This document shows, piece by piece, positions 7,087 to 55,073 of a stretch of 64,000 nt of DNA; the first letter of the stretch is position 1; every line of letters starts with the position of its first letter. Source of the DNA: Hyphomicrobiales bacterium 4NK60-0047b (GTDB lineage Bacteria; Pseudomonadota; Alphaproteobacteria; Rhizobiales; HXMU1428-3); contig BAABWY010000001.1 in NCBI GenBank assembly GCA_040367435.1, positions 930,001 to 994,000 of the forward strand, written 5' to 3'. The position numbers and the translations under genes are program-made. Below the pieces are notes generated by a model, which saw nothing but the letters and a program-made list of their open reading frames with translations, searched no databases and was not told where the DNA came from.

Positions 7087-7125
7087 AGATCTTTCTTAAC
7101 GCCCTTAAAACAAGCCACAAGAACA

Positions 7126-7202
7126 AAATTAAACCGCTGACTTTATTTTAATGTTTTTTCCCCGATTGGAAAATTTATCTAATAAAGTCAGCGGTTTAAT
7201 TT
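7126..7202. repeat. Perfect 22-bp inverted repeat after the IalB-like gene
   Basis: The arms 7126-7147 and 7181-7202 are exactly complementary over 22 bases. The left arm begins AAATTAAACCGCTGACTTTA. The loop of 33 bases is T-rich. It lies between convergent genes and just before an intrinsic terminator. It could be a second terminator, a processing site or the scar of an inserted palindrome. Confidence 0.85.
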
Positions 7203-7213
7203 CGTCTAAAAAG

Positions 7214-10113: not shown

Positions 10114-10149
10114 GCATGCCATCTTCATTGATATCAAAGGCATGCTTAT
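10114..10149 (+). terminator. Hairpin after the MATE gene
   Basis: GCATGCC (10114-10120) pairs with GGCATGC (10139-10145), followed by TTATTTT, which is also the beginning of family-1 copy A. The 18-base loop makes it weaker than a classic terminator. Confidence 0.45.
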
Positions 10150-10265
10150 TTTCTCTCACGGCTATTCTATGAGCTGAAGCTCATAGGCCTACGAGGTGCG
10201 GTGCTAAGCACCGGACGCCTATGGCGTCATGTCCGTCCTCTGAAGTAGAGCACTCCCTTCTTCAG
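10149..10265 (+). repeat. Family-1 structured element, copy A (3' of the MATE gene)
   Basis: Read on the + strand, that is in the sense of the MATE gene ending 36 bases earlier. It starts TTTTCTCTCACGGCTATT, then stem a (CTATGAGCT/AGCTCATAG), the box CCTACGAGG, stem b (CGGTGCT/AGCACCG), stem c (GACGCC/GGCGTC), CATGTC, stem d (near CTCT/AGAG), and ends ACTCCCTTCTTC. This is the only copy whose sense strand is +, and its upstream gene is the only one of the seven on the + strand. Confidence 0.85.
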
Positions 10266-10334
10266 TAAGGTACTTCATAATTTTTGTAATGAATTCAATT
10301 CCATTTGATATGCTCTATAACAAATCTCTCCTTA

Positions 10335-10456
10335 TGAAGAAGGAGTGGCGCTACTTCAGCGTCAGGATATGGCGAAGCGACAGCGAAGCCCGGCGCGAGC
10401 GCCGCCCCTCGGAGGCTCAAGCGCGTCTAGCGCTTGAAATAGCCGTGAGAGAAAAC
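10335..10456 (-). repeat. Family-1 structured element, copy A2 (3' of gshA)
   Basis: Sense is the minus strand, following gshA. Stem a is TCAAGCGC/GCGCTTGA, the box is CCTCCGAGGGGCGG, stem b is GGCGC/GCGCC, and stem d is GACGCT/AGCGCC with one wobble. It ends ACTCCTTCTTC. Copies A and A2 lie 70 bases apart, facing away from each other, and each follows the stop of its own gene in a convergent pair. Confidence 0.85.
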
Positions 10457-10459
10457 AAA

Positions 10460-52061: not shown

Positions 52062-52279
52062 ACGAAGAAGGAGTGGCACTACTTCGTTCGGTGCCAAGAC
52101 ATGGCGCAGCGCCAGCAAAGCCCGGTGCACAAGATCAGCCCGAACAGAGCGCAGCGAGTTCGGATAAGCTTATCGCAAGAAAAGACCACCCACAATGCAA
52201 CCGCGCTGCTTTAAGCAGCGCGGTTGCATTGTGGGCAACTGAAGCGCAACTAAAAAAGTAATAGCCCGTGAGAGAAAAT
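52062..52279 (-). repeat. Family-1 structured element, copy E, long form (3' of maeB)
   Basis: Sense is the minus strand, 84 bases after the maeB stop with a family-2 hairpin between. Stem d is TGGCAC/GTGCCA and stem c GGCGC/GCGCC. The extra arm seen in copy C is present here with inner stem CCGAAC/GTTCGG. Stem a is replaced by a large family-2 palindrome. The terminal box reads ATAGCCCGTGAGAGAAAA. Confidence 0.87.
52189..52258 (+). repeat. Family-2 copy forming a perfect 22-bp palindrome
   Basis: The arm 52189-52210 is the exact reverse complement of 52214-52235 (AGCAGCGCGGTTGCATTGTG and on), with a 3-base TTA loop. The right arm continues as a normal family-2 copy (GCAACTGAAGCGCAACTAAAAA). 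The left arm is the only clear minus-orientation family-2 sequence in the window. Confidence 0.9.
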
Positions 52280-54634: not shown

Positions 54635-54804
54635 TATTTTTTAAAGAACCTAAATTGATGTGACCAAAATTAATGTGGCCCAAATTATTATGGAAGGGTA
54701 CTGCGTAGTCATAAGTAGACCATAGTACGAAGAATTTTGAACGACAACAGGTCTTTTTTAGAATTGTCGCAAAAATATATGCAACAATTTTAAAGAAAAT
54801 AGCC

Positions 54805-55073
54805 CTAAGCTCAGGACCTATTAATCTTATGTGTTCTGCGCTCTCATGCTTTGATCTGAGTAGGCCGAAAGGTACCGGAAATATGGTATATTTTCAAGCC
54901 TTTCGAACGCCCTCAGGTCAAAGCATGAGAGCGCCCGAAGGGTTACCTTAGAAAGGCTTAGATGTTTCAAAACAAGCGCAAAAAAGCTGGTCTACCTTTT
55001 TGAGCATTCTTTGGCAACAGATAAGCCTTTCTAAGGTAACAGAATACATAAAATTAATAGGTCCTGAGCTTAG
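54805..55073. mobile_element. MITE-like three-way palindromic element
   Basis: A 269-base element with no gene. The outer arms 54805-54837 and 55041-55073 pair over 33 bases with two imperfections; the ends read CTAAGCTCAGGACCTATTAA. Inside, hairpin 1 pairs 54839-54860 with 54912-54933 (22 bp, one wobble), with an inner CGAAAGG/CCTTTCG. Hairpin 2 pairs 54942-54960 with 55022-55040 (19 bp, perfect). It could fold as a DNA cruciform or RNA three-way junction. Terminal repeats without a transposase suggest a MITE; TA at both ends may be a target duplication, but this is uncertain. Confidence 0.8.

Follow-up and report, generated by a model that had tools for sequence, protein, structure and literature searches.

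A recently inserted MITE upstream of mutS and a superfamily of elements with one double-hairpin core and different ends

What is the 269-bp palindrome that separates the divergent genes maeB and mutS in Hyphomicrobiales bacterium 4NK60-0047b, and why is its interior so strongly folded? We analyzed it within the window, the whole stretch of 64,000 nucleotides in which it was noticed. An initial annotation, made from the sequence of this stretch, had offered two readings, a MITE with unusual internal structure or a structured RNA. We compared the element with other genomes of its genus, its class, and the phylum.

The element between maeB and mutS

We found that the whole element is a palindrome of palindromes in a divergent intergenic location, 170 bp from the start of maeB and 153 bp from the start of mutS (Table 1). 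The gene starts thus bear out the divergent placement that had been described. The predicted RNA fold has a minimum free energy of -152.9 kcal/mol (z, -14.2) and the DNA fold one of -89.5 kcal/mol (z, -15.4), and in neither case was any shuffled sequence equally low. The 269-base palindrome reported upstream of mutS is real, with stable folds as RNA and as DNA. It had been drawn as a three-way junction in which a 33-bp outer stem encloses hairpins of 22 and 19 bp. The branched palindrome and the long outer stem held up, but the arms measure 34 nt each with 94% complementarity, and the junction is formally four-way, with a mini-hairpin between hairpins A and B in the RNA fold. Both hairpins are present, with basal stems of 23 nt (96%) in A and 19 bp in B, and they extend further through internal loops to apical stems. 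As had been noted, there is no reading frame; no ORF of at least 60 aa overlaps the element.

Table 1. Positions of the element, its parts, and the flanking gene starts in the window
Feature	Position	Strand	Basis
Complete MITE-like element	54805..55073	.	Fold z-scores; empty site in G002, G004, and G001; further copies
Left terminal inverted repeat/outer stem arm (CTA-AGCTCAGGACCTATTAAT...)	54805..54838	+	18-base core resembles an IS5-family IS end
Right terminal inverted repeat/outer stem arm	55040..55073	-	94% complementary to left arm
Hairpin unit A, 97 nt	54838..54934	+	RNA and DNA folds; R2 match
Mini-hairpin CCGAAGG at junction	54935..54941	.	RNA fold
Hairpin unit B, 99 nt	54942..55040	+	Folds; R2 match; apical part oriented as in A
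Left target site (CC)CTA; TA is the presumed duplicated dinucleotide	54803..54807	.	Empty site in relatives
Right TAG, second TA copy	55071..55073	.	Comparison with empty site
maeB start	54634	-	Flanks element
mutS start	55227	+	Flanks element

Three other inverted repeats were seen in the window. A perfect 23-bp repeat with a 1-base loop lies downstream of the maeB stop codon (52189-52235), and a 25-bp repeat (96%) encloses a 33-nt loop with T runs (7123-7205). The third is an inverted-repeat element of about 313 bp (10146-10458) with 30-nt arms (TTATTTTCTCTCACGGCTATT..., 83%) and a very stable multibranched fold. It did not match covariance model R2, described below, and may be a different MITE.

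The closest relative with sequence at this locus is G002 (MutS N terminus, 98% identical), followed by G004 and G001. In all three, the maeB/mutS intergenic region is uninterrupted. The filled site in the window reads GCC-C-TA-[AGCTCAGG...CCTGAGCT]-TA-G-ATTAG, and the empty site reads GCC-C-TA-C-ATTAG in G002 and G001 and GCG-C-TA-C-ATTAG in G004. This alignment of filled and empty sites fits an insertion that would have duplicated the TA. Because the site is empty in G002, G004, and G001, the insertion postdates the split from G002. We concluded that the element near mutS is a MITE that was inserted recently. The insertion spared a conserved block upstream of mutS. Placement in the divergent maeB/mutS region could point to a domesticated regulator of either gene. 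In contrast, the site is empty in G001, G002, and G004 with the flanks otherwise intact, the block upstream of mutS included, and we regard domestication as highly improbable.

We also found further copies in the genus. The genome of the window carries one remnant and a second full copy (C10:56198-56474) with 86% matching ends. The interior of this copy cannot be aligned with that of the window element, yet it folds to the same architecture. Two copies are present in G001 and tens, mostly shortened, in G007. The G007 copy at C290 still has its ends but is down to a single hairpin, and some further G007 copies have a single end left. Many such decayed copies, with one hairpin or one end missing, lie at G007 loci L031, L033, and L039-L047. 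The G007 copies suggest hairpin deletion through slippage or palindrome cleavage.

Ends shared with IS5-family insertion sequences

The 18-base core of the left arm is identical to one end of an IS5-family insertion sequence (IS) except at the first base, which is A instead of G. Across a collection of bacterial genomes, the end pattern RGCTCAGGACCTATTAATNNNAT matched 53 stretches; the title of each is alphaproteobacterial, with Thalassospira, Ruegeria, Shimia, Roseibium, Labrenzia, Rhizobium, Ancylobacter, and several MAGs represented. In Ruegeria atlantica, Shimia, Rhizobium, and Ancylobacter, the same end marks the boundary of elements that are 838 to 844 bp long, with one of 910 bp. These 838- to 844-bp IS elements are flanked by CTA/TAG, as the MITE is, and those examined encode a two-ORF IS5-family transposase (DUF4096 plus DDE domain; NF033580). 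A relative on a Sulfitobacter plasmid is annotated as ISPso2-like. In the IS427 group of Paracoccus (PMC3281130), elements are 832 to 865 bp long, their ORFs are frameshifted, and most have target repeats of 2 bp. Both the end sequence and the TA (CTAG) target of IS5/IS427 are found in the window element. Both MITE ends resemble the left end of the IS, and the first 10 bases alone are common to the MITE ends and the IS right end (GGCTCAGGACT...).

It is well supported that an IS5-type transposase could mobilize the element in trans. From the empty site and the shared ends, both directly observed, we infer a reaction in which an IS5-family (IS427-like, ISPso2-like) DDE transposase would bind the two ~34-bp ends in trans. 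Upstream of mutS, it would have inserted the element at a CTAG/CTAC-like site and duplicated TA. Among the end types, a driving transposase was linked to GGCTCAGGAC ends only.

Protein and Pfam profile searches found no IS5/DUF4096 transposase in the eight genomes of the genus (G000 to G007); in the control for the DUF4096 search, 5 of 14 genomes were positive. The source transposase of the window insertion was thus not seen in the genus, and it is possible that it has been lost, is unassembled, or belongs to another family. The exact paired-end pattern matched only the window's own genome among 385 genomes of the class, a query too strict to indicate rarity, since looser end-pattern and covariance-model searches gave many more matches. 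Viral contigs had no match to the end pattern, and plasmids gave no or few matches when the window element and several relatives were used as queries.

All of these data bear out the MITE reading of the initial annotation: the site is empty in three relatives, and IS5-family IS elements with the same end exist in other Alphaproteobacteria. A search for other copies and for a transposon with the same ends had been proposed, and both were found; the element is neither a single copy nor without a related transposon. It combines terminal inverted repeats, small size without coding capacity, an empty site with TA duplication, dispersed copies, and a same-ended transposon.

A conserved core with many different ends

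Full-length relatives from Thalassospira, Roseibium, and Rhizobiaceae are 266 to 282 bp long, many of them exactly 269 bp, and have the same layout: terminal inverted repeat, hairpin, mini-hairpin, inverted hairpin, terminal inverted repeat. The mini-hairpin at the junction is also predicted in most of these relatives. Within one element, each hairpin is an inverted relative of the other. The apical part of hairpin B in the window element is flipped relative to most relatives. In a Thalassospira element with terminal repeat TTAGATTCAGGACCTGTTAAT (L128:6099-6367), hairpin B is likewise opposite in orientation to its relatives.

When all units were aligned jointly with MAFFT, RNAalifold returned no structure, and we therefore used a better aligned subset. 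Thirteen hairpin units were aligned, and at least one compensatory double change was present at 24 of the 27 consensus pairs. For 87 distinct units, the covariation score was 0.927, versus 0.244 (standard deviation, 0.009) when shuffled and at most 0.176 when the partner was slid, and paired cells made up 91.4% versus 54%; this alignment was fitted to the model and is hence biased towards structure, and the loop counts come from it as well. In 45 deduplicated units, the loop bases were G44 in 43, C45 in 38, A73 in 42, A74 in 38, G31 in 41, G88 in 37, A89 in 40, C90 in 43, and G91 in 37. The loop C-AA-G/C-GCA-G occurs twice per unit in opposite senses, with GA/GA beside the basal loop. We found that the loops keep the same mismatched bases in units with entirely different stems. 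Because the stems turn over by compensation while the loops are fixed, the core is probably kept for its folded shape. An IHF site, an idea that came from a TCAA..TT motif, was dropped because the flanking bases change with the stem.

Gene conversion or template switching between the palindrome arms could also mimic covariation of this kind in an ordinary MITE with no functional core. The flipped apical parts of the L128:6099 element and of window hairpin B are as expected from such events and suggest that exchange between palindrome arms, which is able to repair stems, has occurred. Copies in G007 that lack one hairpin also agree with this explanation. However, template switching should wipe out the internal mismatches too, yet the mismatched loops keep their bases, and a core common to families with different ends is left unexplained. 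We consider it unlikely that arm exchange accounts for the core.

We searched for the core with covariance model R1, which describes one hairpin and was made from the 13-unit alignment. In the genus, R1 found units inside elements with other ends, GGCCGTAAACTCATAA, in G000 (the window's own genome), G001, G002, G004, and G007. A second MITE family with GGCCGTAAACTCATAA ends and the same double-hairpin core lies in the window's own genome at C3:88998-89260 and C3:102040-102338, and ends related to GGCCGTAAACTCATAA are present in most genomes of the genus. Two further end types were found within one Thalassospira locus. Among 385 genomes of the class, R1 matched at least 12 genomes in at least 11 genera, a lower bound because strict filters were used and ten candidates were scored per genome. 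The ends found in the class include GGGTCTGAACCC, AGAACCTATCCC, AGAGCATTGTCTGG, AGAGCGGCGATCAATAG, AGGGCTCAAATTCC, and AGCCCGGACTTCTCACC. In total, about 18 distinct terminal repeats surround the same core.

Model R2 was built from 89 units, with the window units outside the training set. It matched 68 of 398 Pseudomonadota genomes; many of these belong to other classes, and the full architecture was present in several. Complete elements were found in Nitratireductor and on plasmid pAcX50f of the gammaproteobacterium Azotobacter chroococcum (ends GGGTCTGTTGACGTTT), and a single unit was found in the betaproteobacterium Comamonas odontotermitis. This lone unit (L242:1490-1583) is on a plasmid, adjoins the ruvA gene, and has no evident terminal repeats. 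R1 and R2 see one hairpin each; as a check independent of the models, we looked for matching terminal repeats at the distance predicted by the architecture. Matching ends (score of at least 12) were found at 23 of 30 model hits (14/18 in the class and 9/12 in the phylum). In contrast, none of 300 displaced control positions reached this score, and their maximum was 10. The elements at the tested hits are 248 to 284 bp long, mostly 263 to 274 bp.

In an unfiltered search of a 501-bp stretch, window hairpin A matched R2 with 36.0 bits (E = 1.8e-8). Hairpin B, which is degenerate and has the flipped apical part, gave a weak match of 22.7 bits (E = 4e-5). A default-filter R2 search of the whole window missed both units. 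The window element thus has two R2-matching units between terminal repeats, B weakly, as do the double-hairpin elements elsewhere. We concluded that a superfamily found across Proteobacteria combines a single conserved folded core with many different ends. Our literature searches, whose reach excluded most subscription journals and preprints, returned no description of such a superfamily, and as far as we could find, the family is apparently undescribed.

Function of the core and relation to known systems

The very stable fold, the strong covariation, and the conserved asymmetric internal loops, as in functional RNAs, could mean that the core specifies a regulatory or processed structured RNA that is carried by the transposon and selected as a transcript. 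In a selected transcript, G.U pairs should be tolerated far above A.C on that strand. We found no such preference: a strand-symmetric mismatch count on folds made without G.U gave 7 G.U and 7 A.C, a small test, and at the element level in one orientation there were 8 G.U and 16 A.C. In this small test, the counts do not favor RNA. We discounted a seeming G.U excess among the units (75 GT versus 30 AC, counted in unit orientation). In the model-fitted alignment, shifts by one base make T.G out of true T-A pairs (as inspected in L163), and misaligned columns account for at least part of the excess.

Neither the element nor its relatives matched Rfam 15 at the gathering threshold (tRNAs elsewhere were the only matches), and a promoter search of the intergenic region gave chance-level matches only. 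Among 45 classifiable elements, the gene context was also inconsistent, with 18 tandem, 17 divergent, 8 convergent, and 2 apparently inside a long ORF. This looks like tolerance of intergenic sites and not a fixed regulatory position. A role as an intrinsic terminator or promoter was rejected, with matches at chance level and no preference for convergent genes. The structured RNA reading of the initial annotation therefore gained no positive support, and we think it rather doubtful that selection acts on a transcript.

The function of the core is most likely that of a structure recognized in single-stranded DNA, as our model has it. Each hairpin would fold in single-stranded DNA, in a transposition intermediate or at the replication fork, and would be recognized through the internal loops C-AA-G/C-GCA-G by a host factor that is widely conserved. 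The head-to-head layout would place one correctly polarized unit on each strand, so that the core would work in either orientation. Taken together, we favor with fair confidence a MITE mobilized in trans that belongs to a phylum-wide superfamily with a shape-conserved core, the core likely being recognized as single-stranded DNA by a host factor. More tentatively, and with rather less than even confidence, we suggest that the core itself is the lineage and the IS ends are interchangeable; the folded core would be essential through its internal loops and would have been reequipped with ends many times.

Bacterial MITEs are usually regarded as decayed insertion sequences with arbitrary interiors. 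In the double-hairpin family, the interior is the conserved part and covaries like a functional structure. The core is common to differently ended elements in several classes of Proteobacteria, in intergenic DNA beside ordinary genes. This raises the question of what recognizes the C-AA-G/C-GCA-G loops and whether the role lies in transposition, copy maintenance, or a host function. With the covariance model, the family can be annotated; our genome searches suggest that it is common and has so far gone unannotated.

The element shares with the IS427 group of the IS5 family (PMC3281130; ISPso2-like) the 18 bases of one end, the first base aside, and a 2-bp TA-type target. These IS elements are 838 to 844 bp long and have a two-ORF transposase, whereas the MITE has no ORF. 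Each MITE end is similar to the left end of the IS, and the core of the MITE was not observed in the IS. CIR elements of Caulobacter and Brucella (PMC2229807) likewise have two long hairpin arms and a linker and are conserved across Alphaproteobacteria, but they are about 110 bp long, lack an outer stem formed by terminal repeats, and present GANTC in a loop. Identity with CIR was ruled out, as the element is 269 bp long with 34-nt terminal repeats. REP/REPIN sequences (GTAG/CGTC; PMC3733652, PMC3116915) are also inverted hairpin pairs with conserved unpaired bases and possible single-strand recognition. In contrast to the ~270-bp element with its terminal inverted repeats and TA-type insertion, REPs are 20 to 40 bp long with a conserved tetranucleotide at one end. 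The element is like bacterial MITEs such as Correia/NEMIS, RUP, Nezha, QMITE1/2, and MITEPye1 in being small, noncoding, intergenic, and foldable, with terminal inverted repeats and target duplication. Described MITE families, among them MITEPye1 (159 bp, IS1182 type) and QMITE2 (150 to 190 bp), have one end type each and mostly occur in one taxon, whereas here one covarying core is found with about 18 end types across classes.
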